A stretch of 64,000 nt of DNA. Source: Magnetococcales bacterium WMHbinv6 (GTDB lineage Bacteria > Pseudomonadota > Magnetococcia > Magnetococcales > Magnetaquicoccaceae). A program made the translations under genes and the position numbers. This document shows, piece after piece, positions 52,386 to 63,064 of this stretch. Numbering within the stretch: the stretch's first letter is position 1; each line of letters starts with the position of its first letter. Location of the stretch: positions 1-64,000 of the forward strand of contig PDZV01000012.1 in NCBI GenBank assembly GCA_002753135.1. The letters are read 5' to 3'. The notes beneath the pieces are model-generated. The model worked only from the letters and a program-made list of their open reading frames with translations. It made no database searches and had not been told where the DNA came from.

Positions 52386-52460
52386 GCCGCCTTAGCTCAG
52401 GGGCAGAGCAGCTCACTCGTAATGAGCAGGTCCTCGGTTCAATTCCGAGAGGCGGCTCCA
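52386..52460 (+). tRNA. tRNA-Thr (anticodon CGT)
   Basis: A complete cloverleaf with encoded CCA. Acceptor GCCGCCT/AGGCGGC, D stem GCTC/GAGC, anticodon stem GCTCA/TGAGC with loop CTCGTAA, T stem CTCGG/CCGAG with loop TTCAATT. Anticodon CGT reads ACG codons. An accessory two-gene module begins 228 bases downstream, so this tRNA may mark an integration site. I saw no repeat of its 3' end nearby. Confidence 0.95.
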
Positions 52461-52688: not shown

Positions 52689-54896
52689 CTATGATGTAAC
52701 TTTGCCCCTCACGCGAACCTTAGCCTGAAGTTGCTGCTTGATCTGGGTGTAAAGACGGGCTTCCGCGTTTTCCCGATCACGAAAAGAAATCACCAAGGCG
52801 TACTCTTCCTCTTGATTGCAAACCTGTTCTCCCCATGGAAAATCGTTGCGCGTGATAACAGCAAACAGTTTTTCTTCTTTTAGTTTCGAGTCTTTATTAA
52901 ACTGCTTAAATTCCCATAAATCTGCCTGCACCGTTCCTTTGCTGCGCGCCGTTTGGCCAATCAATCCCTTTTTGAATTCTGGAATATTCTCGTAATTGGC
53001 TTTTTCAGTTGCCTTATTGAACATTGTGATGACTTGATCCAAACCAGGGGCTGCCACCAAACGAAAGTCAATACGGGTAGCGCGATATTTGATCCTGTTC
53101 GAGCGAACAGGAGGTGTGTAGGCCAGAGCCGCCGAGATTGCACGTAAGCGACGACTTTTGCCGGTCGTGAACGTCGTGGGAACTGGAATTTCGTAGAAAT
53201 GATGGCGTTTGTTGGCAATGGAAGCGCCAGCGAGAAGTGTCACCGCATCTTCCACTGAATAGAAAAGAGCAGAGGTATCAACCATCCCGTAACCGCAGAC
53301 CTGCCGGAAATCCTTGTTTTGTGTTATCAGCGCTTGGCTAGCCGCGGGCATGGCAGCATGGGCGCACAACAGGGCACGGATCTGGTTGTTGCTGGCACTG
53401 GGCAGTTCGCGAAGAACCAAAGCTGCCAGATGGGCTACCTGAGGCGCTGCCATGCTGGTTCCAGAATGGATGGCAAACAACCGACCTGTTGCATGCTCGT
53501 GCCCTGTGGAAACCACCCCCAATCCGCATCCCTTGTCCAATAACCAGTTTCCCGCACGGGTATTGATCGCCCAGTTGCCACCATAAGCAACCAGTTCCGG
53601 CTTGATAGCCCCATCGACAGAATTACCTCTGCAGGTAAAAGGCGAAGGCTGGTCCGGTTGGGCAATGGAAAGTTCGGATGGATCCAACGGATAGGACTGG
53701 CTGTTGAAGGTTTGGTTGCGATGTGCCAGACTGCCGACAGTAAGCACATTGAGTGCCGGAGCAGGTTCGATAATTCGCCAAGCATCTTGCAGCAGGTAGT
53801 CTGGATAGTTGCGTCTCCAGGCCAACCCTTTGGGTGAAACATCACTGAGCACGTGATTGCCAGCTGAAACCACAAACAACAGGTTCCGGTCCCGACTTAA
53901 TGAGTCCAGGATAAGAGAGAGGCCTCTCAAATGTCCACCCCGATAGGGTTTGTTAACATCACCGAAAGAGAGATTAAACACACGACAATTGTAATGTCTG
54001 CAGAAATAATCCACCGCCTCTATGATCTGATTTTCTACAAATCCTGAATTATTTTCGTTGTTTTCGTCAAGAATTCTGCCACTAAACAGTTTCAGTTTAG
54101 GGGTAAACGCACCAGATCGCAAACCAGCCTCAAAATCGCCATACAATGCCAGTCCGGCGACATGCGTGCCATGTCCGCATTCATCGGCGGACGTCTTACC
54201 CGACAGAAAACTTTGAACATCCCCAACAGCTGGATGCAGCAAAGGGTGACCTGAAATCAAACCGCTATCAAGAACAACGATTGCAGAAGCCTGTTCATCC
54301 GGCGCAGGAACGGGCGGAAATTGATTGATATCCTGCATAACAAGGGAGCGTTCCAAACCGATCTTGGGGGGAAGATCAACGGAACGTACATCCCGATGGC
54401 GCAAGAGCAAGCTGGCTTGAGAGGTGTTGCAACGAACGCGGTAGAGTGTCAAACCAGGTTGCTTGATTTGATCTTTCTTTTCAATCTGCTGTTGCTGCAT
54501 CCAGGTTTCAAAAGCATCCCTCTCCTTTTTCGCTTCTCTGTTATCCTCCAGTGGCCATAACTCCACATCCAACAGGAACAGCTCTTGGTCTGGCAAGCCC
54601 TGGTTTTTCAGTGCCCATCCCTTGCGATCTTCTGGGCTCCAGCGATCCACACTAAGCAAGGCGAAAAAGGCATTTTTATTTATTACCTCACCCTTATCCA
54701 CCAAGGTAGCGAGCCTAGCTTCAAAATTCGCCAGAGCCGCCTCACTGGCAAAACCAACAACAACGGAACTCTCTTCTTGACTGACAAAATCAATGTCGGG
54801 AGAAAGATGTCGCAGCTCAAAATAATCGAGCAAGGTTCCCTGTTGGACTGTAAAACGAAACAGGCGGCGCTCATCAAAGCCCCCTACATCTTGCAT
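52689..54896 (-). CDS. ietS: Subtilisin-like (S8) serine protease, IetS-like, N-terminus cut by a stop
   Basis: 735 residues from ATG 54896. Catalytic triad: Asp in IVVLDSGLISGHPL, His in ECGHGTHVAGLALY, Ser in IHSGTSMAAPQVAHLA; oxyanion Asn in VVSAGNHVL. No signal peptide, so it acts in the cytoplasm. It pairs with the AAA+ ATPase upstream, as in IetAS modules, where protease and ATPase act as toxin and antitoxin and have been reported in anti-phage screens. ATG 54896 has no ribosome site. Two codons upstream in the same frame is TAA (54900-54902), and the frame before it encodes a 49-residue IetS-like N-terminus, so the true gene probably starts at 55049 and is broken. The C-terminal ~200 residues are unrecognised. 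Confidence 0.85.
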   Translation of the reverse strand: MQDVGGFDERRLFRFTVQQGTLLDYFELRHLSPDIDFVSQEESSVVVGFASEAALANFEARLATLVDKGEVINKNAFFALLSVDRWSPEDRKGWALKNQGLPDQELFLLDVELWPLEDNREAKKERDAFETWMQQQQIEKKDQIKQPGLTLYRVRCNTSQASLLLRHRDVRSVDLPPKIGLERSLVMQDINQFPPVPAPDEQASAIVVLDSGLISGHPLLHPAVGDVQSFLSGKTSADECGHGTHVAGLALYGDFEAGLRSGAFTPKLKLFSGRILDENNENNSGFVENQIIEAVDYFCRHYNCRVFNLSFGDVNKPYRGGHLRGLSLILDSLSRDRNLLFVVSAGNHVLSDVSPKGLAWRRNYPDYLLQDAWRIIEPAPALNVLTVGSLAHRNQTFNSQSYPLDPSELSIAQPDQPSPFTCRGNSVDGAIKPELVAYGGNWAINTRAGNWLLDKGCGLGVVSTGHEHATGRLFAIHSGTSMAAPQVAHLAALVLRELPSASNNQIRALLCAHAAMPAASQALITQNKDFRQVCGYGMVDTSALFYSVEDAVTLLAGASIANKRHHFYEIPVPTTFTTGKSRRLRAISAALAYTPPVRSNRIKYRATRIDFRLVAAPGLDQVITMFNKATEKANYENIPEFKKGLIGQTARSKGTVQADLWEFKQFNKDSKLKEEKLFAVITRNDFPWGEQVCNQEEEYALVISFRDRENAEARLYTQIKQQLQAKVRVRGKVTS

Positions 54897-54899
54897 TAC

Positions 54900-55049
54900 T
54901 TATCGCTTGGCAATTTCAACCTTTTGTTGAAGAAGGCGACCATGCCTACGCATATTAGACGGTTCTTTAGGAGGATTGTAATTTTTTGCGCGTTTTTCAG
55001 GAACGGGCGACTCTTTTTGTAAAATCAAATGCGGGTGAAACTCTGCCAT
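54900..55049 (-). pseudogene. N-terminal fragment of the IetS-like protease (49 codons)
   Basis: ATG 55049 has GAGGA at 9 bases and lies 6 bases past the ATPase stop, the expected start for a coupled partner gene. It encodes MAEFHPHLILQKESPVPEKR and on to QQKVEIAKR, then TAA. The basic, Pro-rich opening resembles the N-terminus of IetS-type S8 proteases. The same frame continues into the protease after the TAA with one codon (GTA) before ATG 54896. It is best read as one gene with a nonsense codon; a genuine small protein is the alternative. Confidence 0.65.
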
Positions 55050-55055
55050 TGTCTG

Positions 55056-56051
55056 TTATCCTCGCTGCATACGATGACGTCTGGCATCCTCCCGGCGAAT
55101 GGCTGACTGAAGATGCCGTTCATTAAGAAATTCCTGGCCAGACAAAACCATCTCCTTGGCCGATCGGCGCAACACCCGTTCGACATCGGCATGGCTCATG
55201 CCTTTGAAGAGTTTGATGACATCATTACTCTCCACGTCAAACTCCCGGCGCAAACCACGCAGTTTGCAGGCGAGAAGTTTTTTCAGCTGCTCAAGATTGG
55301 GGGGTTCAAAGAGCAAAATCTCGTCGAACCTCCGCCATACGGCGGCATCCAGAATCGTTTCATGGTTGGTGGCAGCGACCAGGAGACTCCTGCCGTGATA
55401 GGCATCGAGAAGCTGCAAGAAGGCGTTGACCACTCTTTTCAACTCCCCGTGATCTGCAGCATCTGCTCGTTCCTTGGCCAAAGCGTCGAACTCATCAAAC
55501 AAGGCCACCATGGGTACAGAAGCGACAAAATCCAACACCTGTCGCAGATTGGCTGCCGTTTCGCCCAGATAGGAAGAGACCACGCTGTCGATCCGTACAA
55601 TGGCCAACGGCAAACCAAGCTCCGAGGCCAACACCTCTGCCGTCAGGGTTTTGCCACAACCCGGAGGCCCACAAAACAGCAGACGATCTGCTGGCGCAAG
55701 CCCATGAGTTTTCAACACCTCTTGACGATGGTGTTCCTGCAACACCTCCTCCAACAGAGAACGGTTGTCGTCGGATAAAACAAGATCTTCCATACGACGC
55801 AACGGTTCACGAATGTGAAGCAGCGGCAGGCCACGTTCTTTGTCGCTTGGAACACTCTTGACCAGTGAGACCAAGGGTTGGCTGGATACACTGGTACGAC
55901 CATACAAAATTTTTTCCAGGTCGCTGGCAAGCAGGTAGTGATGCTTCTCCCGCTCTTCCCGGATGACCTCCTCAGAAGCTTTTTTGAATGCCTCCAGATT
56001 GCCCTCAGCCCCTGAGCGAATGAGTTGTCGCAACAACTGTCCCGATGCCAT
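55056..56051 (-). CDS. ietA: AAA+ ATPase of an IetAS-like module
   Basis: 331 residues from ATG 56051, chosen because family members begin there (MASGQLLRQLIRSGAEGN) and GGGGA precedes it; the open frame extends to 56204 without domain support. An N-terminal helical region (1-100) is followed by the AAA module: Walker A FCGPPGCGKTLTAEV, Walker B MVALFDEFDAL, sensor-1 VAATNHE, and the Arg-finger region WRRFDEILLF. The C-terminal lid is GMSHADVERVLRRSAKEM. IetA is the partner of the S8 protease. The pair was first described as a plasmid-stabilising toxin-antitoxin system and later listed among defence systems. Confidence 0.88.
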   Translation of the reverse strand: MASGQLLRQLIRSGAEGNLEAFKKASEEVIREEREKHHYLLASDLEKILYGRTSVSSQPLVSLVKSVPSDKERGLPLLHIREPLRRMEDLVLSDDNRSLLEEVLQEHHRQEVLKTHGLAPADRLLFCGPPGCGKTLTAEVLASELGLPLAIVRIDSVVSSYLGETAANLRQVLDFVASVPMVALFDEFDALAKERADAADHGELKRVVNAFLQLLDAYHGRSLLVAATNHETILDAAVWRRFDEILLFEPPNLEQLKKLLACKLRGLRREFDVESNDVIKLFKGMSHADVERVLRRSAKEMVLSGQEFLNERHLQSAIRREDARRHRMQRG

Positions 56052-56378
56052 GTCAAATCCCCATTGTCCTCGCACTGTCCTGCCGGGAAACTCCGCAGGA
56101 ATGCCCAGTCGGTTATACCGATTGTAGCCATTCCGCTGCTTCACCTTCAAGCAGAAGTGTGACGAGGTTATGCGGATTTTTATTATCAAATGTTTGATAA
56201 TCAATAATTATCAAACATTTCGAGCACCAGCCGATCACATCAGGGTTTTATTGACAGGCCCTTCATTGCATTAACAATCATAAACACCTTAATCATGCTT
56301 GTCCAGAAAATTTTCAGACAATAACAGAAAAAATTGCCACACGCCCAGCAGAAGCGCAACAAAAGGAATCACCAGTCC
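56052..56378. other. Intergenic region upstream of the ATPase gene
   Basis: 327 bases between the ietA start and the nucleoside transporter stop, locally AT-rich around 56170-56330. It holds the palindrome cluster at 56182-56220, which is listed separately. On the minus strand TTGATT-16-TAAAAA overlaps that cluster and could be the ietA promoter. I see no gene in the rest. Confidence 0.5.
56182..56220 (-). promoter_or_regulatory. Triple half-site operator upstream of ietA
   Basis: The 9-mer ATTATCAAA occurs at 56182-56190, inverted at 56193-56201, and direct again at 56207-56215. The first two form a palindrome with a 2-base spacer. The last two lie within a 14-bp perfect inverted repeat with a 5-base spacer (56188-56201 with 56207-56220). 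This looks like binding sites for a dimeric repressor about 130-170 bases upstream of the ATPase start. Confidence 0.6.
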
Positions 56379-57617: not shown

Positions 57618-57742
57618 CGCATTATCCTCTCTTGCCAACAGCCACCAGAGCCACCCCTGCCGCTTCTCCTGCACTCCACCAGCAGGCCTGCTGGCGACGA
57701 CAAATGCACACAATTGTTAACCTCGACCCAAAGGTGATACGC

Positions 57743-58207
57743 ATGCTCGACATCGGACAACCCATCCCCGACCTGACTCTGCCCGATCAATCCGGTCAGA
57801 CACACCCCTTGCCGCAACTGCTCGGCAGCCAGGGGGCCATCTTCTATTTTTATCCAAAGGATAATACCCCAGGCTGCACCGTGGAAGCCAACGATTTCCA
57901 GGCATATCTGAGCGACTTTGCCGCCCTCGGCTATCGCGTCATCGGCCTGTCCAAAGATTCGGTCGCCTCGCATGAAAAATTTTGCCAGAAACAAAACCTG
58001 ACCTTTACCCTGTTGAGCGATGCCGACGGTGCCGCCTGTCTGGCTTTTGGCGTCTGGCAGGAAAAAAAGAACTACGGAAAGGTGAGCATGGGCATTGTCA
58101 GATCAACTTTTGTTGTTGATGCGCAGGGCATTGTTCGTCGGGTTTATCGCGCCGTGCGGGTCAATGGCCATGCGCAACAGCTGCTGGCCGATCTGCAAGC
58201 CCGGTGA
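57743..58207 (+). CDS. bcp: Bcp/PrxQ-type peroxiredoxin
   Basis: 154 residues from ATG 57743, with AAGGTG about 6 bases upstream. Thioredoxin fold with YFYPKDNTPGCTVEANDF. The peroxidatic Cys is in PGCT; the Cys five residues later found in E. coli Bcp is absent, and another candidate sits in EKFCQKQNL. KVSMGIVRSTFVVDAQG closes the core. It reduces hydroperoxides, probably with thioredoxin, which suits a microaerophile. Confidence 0.94.
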   Translation: MLDIGQPIPDLTLPDQSGQTHPLPQLLGSQGAIFYFYPKDNTPGCTVEANDFQAYLSDFAALGYRVIGLSKDSVASHEKFCQKQNLTFTLLSDADGAACLAFGVWQEKKNYGKVSMGIVRSTFVVDAQGIVRRVYRAVRVNGHAQQLLADLQAR

Positions 58208-58223
58208 TGCGGGCTATTTTCCC

Positions 58224-58255
58224 TTCCGTCTGCCTCCTGTTTGAGGCAGACGGAA
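58224..58255. terminator. Hairpin between convergent genes
   Basis: A 13-bp perfect stem (58224-58236 with 58243-58255) with a 6-base loop lies between the peroxiredoxin and hemerythrin stops. No T run on either side, so it is a terminator candidate only. Confidence 0.5.
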
Positions 58256-58268
58256 CAGGAGGAACTGC

Positions 58269-58715
58269 TTAACCTTTTTCGTCGTGATAGTACTGTTCGG
58301 CAATTTTTTGCACTTCCGGAGTATTCAGATAGGGCATGTATTGGCGATCTTCGCCGAGAATATGGCCGGTCAGCCAGTTGGTCAAAAAGAGTACCACTTC
58401 ATCGATCACCCCATGCCGTCCCTGCTCATCTTCGGCCTTGAGAAAACGGGAACGAAATTCACAGAGATTTTCCCGAATTTTGTCGTGCAGATTTTCATGC
58501 TCTTCAGTTGCGGGGTAGCCCCCTTTGCGCATCAAACGCTCTTCAAAACGAAAATGGCTGGTGACATAGCCACGCAGTTGCACAAATATTCTGTCGATCT
58601 CGTCAACTGCCTTGTTGTTGTGAATCGCCTCCATCATGCTGGCAAACAGTTGAAACAAACGTTGATGCTGGTCATCAATCGGGCCGACGCCGACACTGTA
58701 CTCCGCTTTCCACAT
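58269..58715 (-). CDS. Bacteriohemerythrin
   Basis: 148 residues from ATG 58715 (GAGG upstream); a GTG at 58724 is in frame but the family begins MWKAEYSVGV. Diiron ligands: His in IDDQHQRLF, His and Glu in HFRFE, His pair in HENLH, and His and Asp in HILGED. A soluble single-domain oxygen carrier or sensor. It probably delivers or buffers O2, and resembles the sensor domain fused to the receptor at 37188. Confidence 0.95.
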   Translation of the reverse strand: MWKAEYSVGVGPIDDQHQRLFQLFASMMEAIHNNKAVDEIDRIFVQLRGYVTSHFRFEERLMRKGGYPATEEHENLHDKIRENLCEFRSRFLKAEDEQGRHGVIDEVVLFLTNWLTGHILGEDRQYMPYLNTPEVQKIAEQYYHDEKG

Positions 58716-58953
58716 GAGCCTCACCTCGCTTCCTTAGGGTTGATCCGCCGTTGATGGCATTATTGCCTGCTCTGGCAACCCGTCTCAAGCATTATCGTCA
58801 AAAAGCAAAAATTTTTTTGGAACTTTTTGCGAAAAATTTGTAACAAACGTGATATTTGTCTATTTTATCCTGCGGGTGCTTGCTGCACCGAGGGGACATT
58901 TTGAAATAACCGTGCGATCTTATCCATTCCTTCCTGCAAAGTGAGGTTGAGCC

Positions 58954-60189
58954 GTGAGCGAACAACAGGAGAAAAAGCAAGCATTTGAACTGCATCCCAC
59001 CCCGATGCTGGACCATCTGGAAAGCGGTCCCTGGCCCAGCTTTATCAAGGGGTTTAAAGAGACGGTGACGCGGACGGAAAAAACCATGGTCCGTGGTGTC
59101 CTCGATCAGTTGAACTACTCTTACGAAACCAAAATGGGTTACTGGAAGGGGGGCGTGGTCGGCGTTCATGGCTATGGGGCCGGGGTTATTAGCCGCTACA
59201 GCATGATCAGCGACCAGTTTCCGGAAGCGACCGAATTTCATACCATGCGCGTGCAACCGGCTCCCGGCCTGCACTACAGCGCCAAAGCCCTGCGTGAAGT
59301 CTGCGATATTTGGGAAAAATATGGCTCCGGTCTGATGTCGATGCACGGACAAACCGGCAACCTGCAGCTGCAAGGCGTCAAAGCAGAAAATGTGCAGGCT
59401 CTCTTCGATGAACTCAATCAACGGGGTTGGGATCTGGGTGGAGCGGGGGCCACTGTCCGTACCGGTGCCTCCTGCGTCGGCCCGGCCCGTTGCGAACAGG
59501 CCTGCTACGACACCCTGGGTACGCATGGCAAAGTGTTGAGCTATTATGCCGACCTGACCCATCGCCCACAGCTGCCCTATAAAGCCAAATTCAAATTTTC
59601 CGGCTGTCCCAACGATTGCACCAACAGCATCCAACGGGCCGACTATGCGGTGATCGGCACCTGGAAAGATGATATGCAAGTCGATACTGCCGAAGTGGAA
59701 AATTTTATCGATAAAAAAGGGATCGATTATGTGGTCAACAACGTCATCAGCCGTTGCCCGACCCAGGCCATCACCTTGAAAGGCAAACAGCTGGAAATCG
59801 ACAACCGCAACTGCGTGCGCTGCATGCACTGCCTCAACGTCATGCCCAAAGCCCTTTCACCCGGCAAAGAGCGGGGGATTACCCTGCTGGTCGGTGGCAA
59901 GGGACATCTCAAAGTCGGCAACATGCTCGGCTCGGTGATGGTGCCCTTCATGAAAATGGAAACGGAAGAGGATATCGACGCCTTTATCGAACTGATCGAC
60001 AAAATGATCGATTACTGGTCGGAAAACGGCCTGGATCACGAACGGATCGGCGAAACCATCGAGCGGGTGGGTGTGCAGGAGTTTCTTGATGCCGTCGGCC
60101 TGGAAGCCAATATCGATATGGTGGCCCATCCACGGGACAATCCGTTTTTCAAAGCGGATCTGACCCACAGCCCGGAAGAAGCGGCCTGA
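58954..60189 (+). CDS. dsrA: DsrA, alpha subunit of dissimilatory sulfite reductase
   Basis: 411 residues; GTG 58954 with GAGG at 7 bases. Siroheme/[4Fe-4S] ligand Cys: CVGPARCEQAC and SGCPNDCTNSIQ. The inserted ferredoxin domain has SRCPTQAIT and NCVRCMHCLNVMPKAL. With DsrB it forms the alpha2-beta2 enzyme that interconverts sulfite and sulfide on DsrC. The company of dsrL and the apparent absence of dsrD next to dsrB favour the reverse (oxidative) direction. First gene of dsrA-dsrB-dsrL. Confidence 0.98.
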   Translation: MSEQQEKKQAFELHPTPMLDHLESGPWPSFIKGFKETVTRTEKTMVRGVLDQLNYSYETKMGYWKGGVVGVHGYGAGVISRYSMISDQFPEATEFHTMRVQPAPGLHYSAKALREVCDIWEKYGSGLMSMHGQTGNLQLQGVKAENVQALFDELNQRGWDLGGAGATVRTGASCVGPARCEQACYDTLGTHGKVLSYYADLTHRPQLPYKAKFKFSGCPNDCTNSIQRADYAVIGTWKDDMQVDTAEVENFIDKKGIDYVVNNVISRCPTQAITLKGKQLEIDNRNCVRCMHCLNVMPKALSPGKERGITLLVGGKGHLKVGNMLGSVMVPFMKMETEEDIDAFIELIDKMIDYWSENGLDHERIGETIERVGVQEFLDAVGLEANIDMVAHPRDNPFFKADLTHSPEEAA

Positions 60190-60243
60190 TCGCCAGTATT
60201 CTCTTGACCGAATCGATTCAACCTGTCTCAAGGAGTCTTATTG

Positions 60244-61317
60244 ATGGCCGAACGTACCTGGAAAACCATTGAAAATGGTCCCCATTCGCTCGATGATTTT
60301 TTGCACCCGATCAGCAAGAAAAATTATGGACAATGGCGTTATCACGAACGCCCCCGTCCTGGTGTGTTGAAACATGTCGCCTGGAGCGGTGACGTGCTTT
60401 TTACCGTCCGTGCGGCCACCCATCGCCAGGTGACGGTGGATATTGTCCGCCGCCTCTGCGATTTGGCCGATAAATATGCCGATGGCTACCTGCGCTGGAC
60501 CATCCGCAACAATGTCGAATTCATGACCCCCAACGAAGCCAACGTCGAACCTCTGATCCGTGATCTGGCAGCCATTGGTCACCCGGTTGGTGGTACCGGT
60601 CCTTCGGTCAGTGCCATCGCCCATACCCAAGGCTGGCTGCACTGCGACATTCCGGCCATCGACGCCTCCGGCGTGGCCAAAAGCATTATGGATGCCCTGT
60701 TCCATGATTTTGCCCACGAAGAGATGCCCAACCGGGTTCGTCTCTCCACCTCCTGCTGCGAAATCAACTGCGGCGGTCAGGCGGATATAGCCGTGGTGGT
60801 GCAACATACCCGCCCGCCGCGCATCAACCATGAAATTTTGGCCAACGTCTGCGAAATGCCCAGCACCGTGGCCCGCTGCCCGGTGGCGGCCATCCGTCCC
60901 ACCACCGTCAACGGCAAACCCTCCCTGATGGTGGTCGAAGAGAAGTGCATCTACTGCGGAGCCTGCTTTGGTGCCTGCCCGGCCATGGAGATCAACCATC
61001 CGGAACACTCCAAGCTGGCCGTCTGGGTCGGCGGCAAAAACTCCAACGCCCGCAGCAAACCCACCAACATGAAACTGGTGGCGCATGGCCTGCCCAACAA
61101 TCCGCCCCGCTGGCCAGAGGTGACCGACGTGCTGAAACGGATCCTGGGAGCCTACAAGGCCGGTGGTCGCGATTGGGAGCGTCTCGGCGAATGGATCGAG
61201 CGCATCGGTTGGCGTCGCTTCTTTGAAGAGACCGGCCTTGCCTTCGACAAATCGATGATCGACAACTATCGCCACGCCAGGGTGTCGCTCAACCAATCCG
61301 CGCAAATTCGTTTCTAG
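60244..61317 (+). CDS. dsrB: DsrB, beta subunit of dissimilatory sulfite reductase
   Basis: 357 residues; ATG 60244 has AAGGAG at 8 bases. Coupled siroheme-FeS Cys motif STSCCEINCGGQADIAVV; ferredoxin domain EEKCIYCGACFGACPAMEI. PTNMKLVAHGLPNNPPRWPE is a typical C-terminal DsrB block. It carries the catalytic siroheme site in characterised enzymes. It lies 54 bases after dsrA; dsrL starts 16 bases after its stop. Confidence 0.98.
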   Translation: MAERTWKTIENGPHSLDDFLHPISKKNYGQWRYHERPRPGVLKHVAWSGDVLFTVRAATHRQVTVDIVRRLCDLADKYADGYLRWTIRNNVEFMTPNEANVEPLIRDLAAIGHPVGGTGPSVSAIAHTQGWLHCDIPAIDASGVAKSIMDALFHDFAHEEMPNRVRLSTSCCEINCGGQADIAVVVQHTRPPRINHEILANVCEMPSTVARCPVAAIRPTTVNGKPSLMVVEEKCIYCGACFGACPAMEINHPEHSKLAVWVGGKNSNARSKPTNMKLVAHGLPNNPPRWPEVTDVLKRILGAYKAGGRDWERLGEWIERIGWRRFFEETGLAFDKSMIDNYRHARVSLNQSAQIRF

Positions 61318-61333
61318 GGGGGGGGTGAAACTC

Positions 61334-63064
61334 ATGGTACACGCCAACCCGATTCACCGTTCTGCCGTGGAATGGGAATTTCAGCCGCTGCTGCGCGAAT
61401 CCGGCCTGGATCGCATCGTCGCCTATGGCGACCGCAGCGGCAAATGCCCAACCTATGTCGAACGGGTTCCCCCCTGCAGTAACGCCTGTCCGGCAGGGGA
61501 AGATATTCGTGGCTATCACAATCTGATTCGCGGCACCCGCAAAGAGGGGGATGATCCGTGGGCAGCCGCTTTTTATCGTCTGACCCAGACCAATCCTTTT
61601 CCGGCGGTGATGGGCCGGGTCTGCCCTGCGCCATGCCAGGGGGCCTGCAACCGGCAGTTTCGCGATGAGACCATCCATATCAACGCCGTGGAACAGGCCA
61701 TCGGCGAATATGCCATCGAGAAAAAACTGGCCTTCCCGAAACCGACACAGCGCACCGGCAAAAAAATGGCGGTGGTCGGCTCCGGTCCGGGTGGTTTTTC
61801 CTGTGCCTATCATCTGGCCCGGCGTGGCCATACGGTGGTCATCTACGAAGCCCAGGATAAACCAGGCGGGATGATGCGTTACGGCATCATGGGCTACCGG
61901 GTCAGCCGTGCCGTTCTGGAGGCCGAATGTCAGCGTATTCTCGATCTGGGCGTCGAACTGCGTACCGGTATCCGGGTCGGGGTCGATGTCACGCTGCAAC
62001 AACTGAGCGATGAATACGATGCGGTTTTTGTGGCGGTCGGTGCGCAAAAAGGGCGGGCGTTGCCCATCCCCGGTGCCAACGGCCCCGGCGTGACCAACGC
62101 CATCGACTTTCTCAAAGATTTTGAAAAATTGGGCGAGATGATGCCGATCGGCAAACAGATAACCGTCATCGGCGATGGCGATGTGGCCATGGATGTGGCT
62201 CGTCTGGCTCTGCGTCTGGGATCCAAAGCCACGCTGGTCTCTGCCGTACCCCGTGAAGAGATGAAATGTTCCGGCTACGAGTTTGACGAAGCAGTGGCCG
62301 AAGGGACAGAAATGGTCTATCTGGCCGGAACAGTCTCCGTGCAACGAGACGGTGAGCAGGTTACCGGTCTGCAGTGCGTCAAAATGGTCAAAAAGAGCAA
62401 AGGTGAAGAGGGCTGGGACCATCCGATTCCTTTTTTCCGTTTCAAGGCACAGGCGGGAACCGAGTTTGTCCTGCCCTGCGATATGGTGGTAGCCTCCATC
62501 GGACAAAGCACCGACATGTCCGGCCTGGAAGCCTGTACCGCCGGTGGTCCGTGGCTGAAAGTGGACCACAACTATAAAATCGAAGGGATGAGCAACCTCT
62601 TCGGCGGTGGTGATGCGCTGCAGATCACCCTGTTGACCACCGCCATCGGCCACGGGCGCAAAGCCGCCGAGGCGATGGATCGACTGGTCAACGGCCTGCC
62701 TTTGCCACCGAAACCGGCCCGTCGCGATGTGGTCCGTTACGAAAAGTTGAAATCGGACTTTTTTGTTGCCACACCACAACAAAAACGGCGCCTCGAACAT
62801 CCAGAGGTGGTCAAAGGCTCCTGGAAAGAGGTGCTGGTGGCCCTCAACCGTGATCAGGCCAAACAGGAGTCCAGCCGCTGTATGAGCTGCGGCCTCTGTT
62901 TTGAGTGCAACCAGTGTATGCTCTTCTGTCCGCAGCACGCCATCACCCGTTTTTCTGGCAATCCAGAGGGTGAGGTGATGTTTACCTACTATGAAAAGTG
63001 TGTCGGCTGCCATATCTGCGCCGAAATCTGCCCGACCGGCTATATCGACATGGGTATGGATTGA
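61334..63064 (+). CDS. dsrL: DsrL iron-sulfur flavoprotein oxidoreductase
   Basis: 576 residues from ATG 61334; GTG 61325 is in frame but sits in the G-rich ribosome site. Layout like the small subunit of glutamate synthase: Cys cluster PPCSNACPAGEDI and CPAPCQGACNRQF; FAD Rossmann motif VVGSGPGGFSCAYHLARRG; second nucleotide motif VIGDGDVAMDVARLALRLG. A C-terminal ferredoxin part follows (RCMSCGLCFECNQCMLFCPQ, KCVGCHICAEICPTG). In sulfur oxidisers DsrL takes electrons from DsrAB and passes them to NAD(P)+. Direct linkage to dsrB, without dsrEFH between, resembles the green sulfur bacterial order. Confidence 0.94.
   Translation: MVHANPIHRSAVEWEFQPLLRESGLDRIVAYGDRSGKCPTYVERVPPCSNACPAGEDIRGYHNLIRGTRKEGDDPWAAAFYRLTQTNPFPAVMGRVCPAPCQGACNRQFRDETIHINAVEQAIGEYAIEKKLAFPKPTQRTGKKMAVVGSGPGGFSCAYHLARRGHTVVIYEAQDKPGGMMRYGIMGYRVSRAVLEAECQRILDLGVELRTGIRVGVDVTLQQLSDEYDAVFVAVGAQKGRALPIPGANGPGVTNAIDFLKDFEKLGEMMPIGKQITVIGDGDVAMDVARLALRLGSKATLVSAVPREEMKCSGYEFDEAVAEGTEMVYLAGTVSVQRDGEQVTGLQCVKMVKKSKGEEGWDHPIPFFRFKAQAGTEFVLPCDMVVASIGQSTDMSGLEACTAGGPWLKVDHNYKIEGMSNLFGGGDALQITLLTTAIGHGRKAAEAMDRLVNGLPLPPKPARRDVVRYEKLKSDFFVATPQQKRRLEHPEVVKGSWKEVLVALNRDQAKQESSRCMSCGLCFECNQCMLFCPQHAITRFSGNPEGEVMFTYYEKCVGCHICAEICPTGYIDMGMD

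Follow-up and report, generated by a model that had tools for sequence, protein, structure and literature searches.

How should an IetAS locus be read when a stop codon lies inside its protease gene: has the protease been lost, is it made in two pieces, does it begin downstream of the stop, or is the stop absent from the organism? The question is raised by a 64,000-nucleotide stretch of DNA from Magnetococcales bacterium WMHbinv6 (contig PDZV01000012.1, positions 1 to 64,000; hereafter the window), whose source assembly is metagenome-like (3.84 Mb in 80 contigs, 96% complete) and whose host is a magnetotactic-type bacterium. IetAS of PADLOC consists of an AAA+ ATPase gene followed on the same strand by an adjacent S8 protease gene, an arrangement that the window shares, except that there a stop follows codon 49 of the protease gene and splits it. 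Phage protection is attributed to other IetAS systems. The same types of protein are paired in sgiA/sgiT (S026/S025) of Salmonella Genomic Island 1 and in ietA/ietS of plasmid pTiC58; these pairs are intact and reside on mobile elements, whereas the pair in the window is chromosomal, lies by a tRNA and has a broken toxin gene. In the Salmonella pair, the sgiT protease is the toxin and the sgiA ATPase the antitoxin, as shown experimentally in E. coli (PMC5006074).

On the minus strand, the ATPase stop is followed by 6 bases, ATG 55049, 49 sense codons, TAA, GTA and ATG 54896 (Table 1). The coordinates given in the initial annotation hold on re-reading. The annotation had also placed a ribosome site 6 bases after the ATPase stop; this distance is correct for the start codon ATG 55049 but not for the ribosome site itself, as its AGGA and the end of the ATPase gene overlap. 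Near-palindromic repeats between a promoter-like site and ietA possibly form a putative operator; they are not present in the other IetAS loci that we fetched.

Table 1. Features of the split IetAS locus and its surroundings, in window coordinates
Feature	Position	Strand	Description
ietA-like AAA+ ATPase gene	55056..56051	-	331 aa; ATG 56051; stop 55058-55056; ribosome site GGGGATTTGAC
49-codon ORF, detached IetS N terminus	54903..55049	-	ATG 55049; peptide MAEFHPHLILQKESPVPEKR...IAKR
In-frame TAA	54900..54902	-	Falls at codon 50 of the ancestral ietS reading frame
ietS-like S8 protease gene, remainder	52689..54896	-	735 aa; ATG 54896; stop at 52689
tRNA-Thr (CGT)	52386..52460	+	Found by ARAGORN; convergent with ietS; module lies 3' of the tRNA
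Near-palindromic repeats ATTATCAAATGTTTGATAAT / ATTATCAAACATTT (near-palindrome ATTATCAAATGTTTGATAAT plus third half-site: 56182..56220)	56179-56220		Between promoter-like site and ietA
Promoter-like site	56305-56277	-	Upstream of near-palindrome and ietA

PADLOC profiles name both members of the pair, in agreement with the assignment to IetAS made from the first reading. The ATPase is IetA (PDLC02196, E = 2e-97) and matches Pfam AAA (5.1e-28), with intact Walker A (K134) and Walker B (D186/E187) motifs and Arg 240/241 present; it shares 86-88% identity with its counterparts in five Magnetococcales relatives and ~80% with that of genome G035. The 735-aa ORF is IetS (PDLC02198, E = 5.6e-246, profile positions 64-788 of 795) and matches Pfam Peptidase_S8 (5.8e-41). 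Its catalytic triad, annotated earlier as intact, is indeed complete within this frame (D210, 54267-54269; H242, 54171-54173; S481, 53454-53456), and the oxyanion Asn is N347. The IetA-family ATPase lies directly upstream on the same strand, and the IetS-family protease has its Asp/His/Ser triad; a single uninterrupted protease frame that includes the N-terminal segment is not found. Because the TAA (54902-54900) interrupts this frame, we file the locus as IetAS with a broken protease gene and not as a complete system. The NCBIfam anti-phage equivalogs IteA and IteS (NF042959 and NF042956) also give significant matches, at 248 and 125 bits against curated cut-offs of 510 and 900 bits; with scores so far below the cut-offs, the pair belongs to the PDLC02198 subfamily and not to one that NCBI labels anti-phage. 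A search for a solved IetS structure returned generic subtilases only.

Taken alone, the 735-aa ORF enters the IetS profile at position 64 (residue 16), so that about 48 profile positions are missing. In a six-frame profile search reading through stops, the match reaches back to position 5, a single TAA lying within it, and the score rises from 816 to 828 bits. With the 49 codons included, both PADLOC profiles are matched almost from end to end. These codons align with the N termini of 16 relatives and keep all 8 of the 8 invariant residues, which bears out the earlier proposal that they represent the missing protease N terminus; by alignment, they are homologous to it. The longer profile match and this alignment exceed what chance would give. 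The conserved segment follows the pattern xHLxLxRE...EKR or ...RRK and can be made out in almost all intact IetS proteins inspected, among them those of viral contigs and rhizobial plasmid proteins at ~30% identity. In the relatives compared (Magnetococcales, Pusillimonas, Marinobacter, Nitrosomonas, Methylomonas and others, at 50-70% identity), the frame has its start ~52 codons before the position that corresponds to ATG 54896 and is fused to the protease; the exception, L012, begins near a contig end and has unrelated sequence upstream.

These alignments bear on the idea that ATG 54896 is the true start of a protease that needs no N-terminal segment, which would make the upstream ORF irrelevant. 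The complete catalytic domain and triad would suit such an enzyme, but the segment that it would lack is conserved across the family even at the identity of the rhizobial proteins, and ATG 54896 has no ribosome site. Furthermore, a homologue starting at the equivalent of this ATG without an upstream extension, which the initial annotation had named as contrary evidence, does not occur among the relatives. A genuine start at ATG 54896 is largely refuted by the alignments, and we regard it as very unlikely.

The aligned place of the TAA is occupied by a sense codon in every relative aligned, and a stop at the same place is found in none of 40-odd relatives from Magnetococcales, gamma- and betaproteobacteria, rhizobial plasmids and viral contigs. 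An exact search for the split junction in viral contigs gave no match, and tblastn found no copies in phage records. The ATG two codons after the stop is also new in the window, the relatives having no ATG there. A split shared by relatives as a programmed feature is rejected, as none was seen in the other Magnetococcales, genomes, plasmids and viral contigs examined. Judged by its sequence, the locus is ordinary IetAS whose IetS has acquired a lineage-specific nonsense mutation.

A base unlike that of every relative could also be an artefact, in which case the gene would be intact in the organism and the stop would stem from a base-call, consensus or strain-mixture error in the metagenome-like assembly, whose 80 contigs and 96% completeness leave room for this explanation. 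The change is, however, a single substitution in non-repetitive sequence and no homopolymer indel, a context in which short-read consensus is rarely wrong, and the neighbouring genes are intact. We therefore consider an assembly error improbable.

The 735 codons hold no further stops or frameshifts, and pN/pS between the window and its relatives is low for both genes, although this test is weak because synonymous sites are saturated. The otherwise open frame and, for what the saturated comparison can say, the low pN/pS disfavour a long-dead pseudogene; together they imply that the stop is recent or that the remainder is still used. The ratio of IetS to IetA on the terminal branch of the window is 0.445/0.091 = 4.9, compared with about 2-3 in most lineages, and private changes at otherwise invariant columns are only slightly high (10 of 198 in IetS, 4 of 135 in IetA). 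The long IetS branch and the private changes appear to be a mild signal, confounded by recombination.

Across the Magnetococcales loci L063-L067 (genomes G010, G045, G047, G039 and G040), IetA hardly varies, but IetS has a patchwork structure. L064 and L065 have 98.5% of their residues in common in IetA and 70% in IetS, and their ietS genes have blocks of 53-77% nucleotide identity (N terminus, catalytic domain and a C-terminal stretch) between blocks of 89-99%. This patchwork looks like recombinational exchange of protease segments, although it could also stem from chimeric assembly. Full-length IetS relatives are also present on contigs classed as viral in IMG/VR (L117-L130), most with an adjacent IetA-like ATPase; L121 has no same-strand upstream ATPase ORF in the stretch examined.

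The two start codons of the split gene differ in their ribosome sites. ATG 55049 has a strong one, forming a duplex of -6.5 kcal/mol with the 16S tail; ATG 54896, 3 bases past the TAA, is essentially without one (-1.4 kcal/mol). Because ATG 54896 has no ribosome site of its own, any synthesis of the 735-aa chain probably relies on ribosomes that terminated at the TAA immediately before. Close spacing permits reinitiation: in E. coli, coupled translation at +2 nt is reduced by 5, 20 or 70% according to the gene pair, and the natural pairs in that study carry ribosome sites, unlike ATG 54896 (PMC10666635).

We infer, with a probability of roughly 0.64, that the window holds a chromosomal IetAS locus in which the toxin gene ietS was hit by a recent nonsense mutation at codon 50 and its product is now most likely inactive or strongly attenuated, while the antitoxin gene ietA is intact. 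The mutation would end production of the full-length protease. Ribosomes finishing the 49-codon peptide could reinitiate 3 bases downstream and give some 735-aa protease, lacking the conserved N-terminal tail and first helix, and the toxin would be inactive or strongly attenuated. Such a toxin could be tolerated because the antitoxin is still present. Against loss, the 735 codons carry no further lesion and the 49 codons keep their invariant residues, just as they would in a functional split gene, and an ATG has arisen two codons after the stop, where relatives have none.

These features raise the possibility of a functional split enzyme, in which termination-reinitiation couples translation of the 49-aa peptide to that of the 735-aa piece, and the two associate into a working or tunable IetS. 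The strong ribosome site of the 49-codon ORF, the ATG directly past its stop and the retained N-terminal residues agree with this arrangement, and genes lying close together frequently specify subunits of the same complex (PMC10666635). AlphaFold models the intact relative L064 (mean pLDDT 69) with a low-confidence tail (residues 1-22) and a confident helix (33-51) ahead of the first strand (62-68); the TAA maps to the end of this helix, and the linker preceding the strand is where the 735-aa piece starts, a predicted position of the cut that would suit two associating chains. However, the tail is the part modelled at low confidence, and the long IetS branch fits relaxation (or recombination) better than constraint. 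Furthermore, no second genome among the relatives seen shares the split, which leaves it with no evidence of having been selected over the long term. We consider a working split enzyme unlikely. Quite unlikely, in our estimate, is a two-chain coupled protease in which the 49-aa peptide is regulatory and the 735-aa chain catalytic, their ratio being set by termination-reinitiation; the conserved disordered tail plus helix in the peptide would then possibly be a handle gripped by the ATPase. If true, two-chain IetS would make the locus a naturally occurring split-toxin form of IetAS and would reveal the purpose of the N-terminal tail.

Broken proteases beside intact ATPases recur elsewhere. Among 24 genomes with a match to the IetS profile, the protease is intact in 21 and broken in three, all three in Magnetococcales (3 of 7): the window's own genome by a nonsense codon, and G040 and G035 by frameshifts. 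In G040 the frameshift lies near 4395-4358 of L067, in a run of seven A that is possibly a slippage or phase-variation site, with ietA intact; in G035 it lies near 3936 of L068, in the catalytic domain. The ATPase next to IetS is essentially intact in all 24 genomes, that of G035 losing its last two residues. Similarly, the ATPase is annotated as intact in all 16 finished plasmid loci, and the protease is broken in five of these, representing four lineages: by frameshifts in Pseudomonas pF076 and Agrobacterium pDG3-1g, by an inserted IS30 copy in Pseudomonas pF061_1, and by loss of the N-terminal third in R. ruizarguesonis TP42 and TA1, one of these strains having a further stop. These loci resemble the window in combining an interrupted protease with an intact ATPase; unlike the window, they carry different lesions at different places, none at codon 50. 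Independent lesions number seven in the protease and none in the ATPase, an excess that is not significant given the gene lengths, the protease being 2.4 times longer (0.704^7 = 0.086, by hand). Recurrent protease breaks with an intact ATPase fit tolerated loss of the toxin with retention of the antitoxin.

The surroundings of the module are housekeeping genes, with recN and tRNA-Thr on one side and a nucleoside-transporter gene on the other, and it does not lie in a defence island. Beyond the module, translations suggest hemerythrin- and peroxiredoxin-like ORFs at 57632-58724, as well as sulfite-reductase-like genes (dsrA/dsrB type) with an iron-sulfur oxidoreductase (dsrL type) at 58954-63064. 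The recN/tRNA-Thr neighbourhood is the same in G001 and G003, and a close copy of the module is absent from the six same-genus genomes searched. In the congener G001, this site holds a 7.5-kb integrated element (L088:3235-10738, G001:C144) encoding a P4-type tyrosine integrase, a primase/helicase-like protein and an Sf6-like small terminase, and flanked by direct repeats of 23 bases that match the tRNA 3' end exactly; the element sits at the same place, which would make the tRNA-Thr site a hotspot for integration within the genus. In the window, the tRNA 3' end occurs once, so no repeat surrounds the module, and no integrase flanks it. The adjacency to the tRNA noted in the initial annotation stands, at 228 bases from the protease stop, but without an att repeat or integrase around the module the link to the tRNA is circumstantial. 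The IetAS module may be the leftover of an integrative element at tRNA-Thr, or may have arrived with one.

Together, these observations describe a system of a kind already known, in which a real-looking nonsense mutation most likely silences or weakens the protease. The locus provides a clean example of IetAS in which the toxin is interrupted beside an intact antitoxin, and it points to the conserved, unexplained N-terminal segment of IetS. Furthermore, the recurrent lesions confined to the protease are an evolutionary readout consistent with the protease being the costly component of the system.
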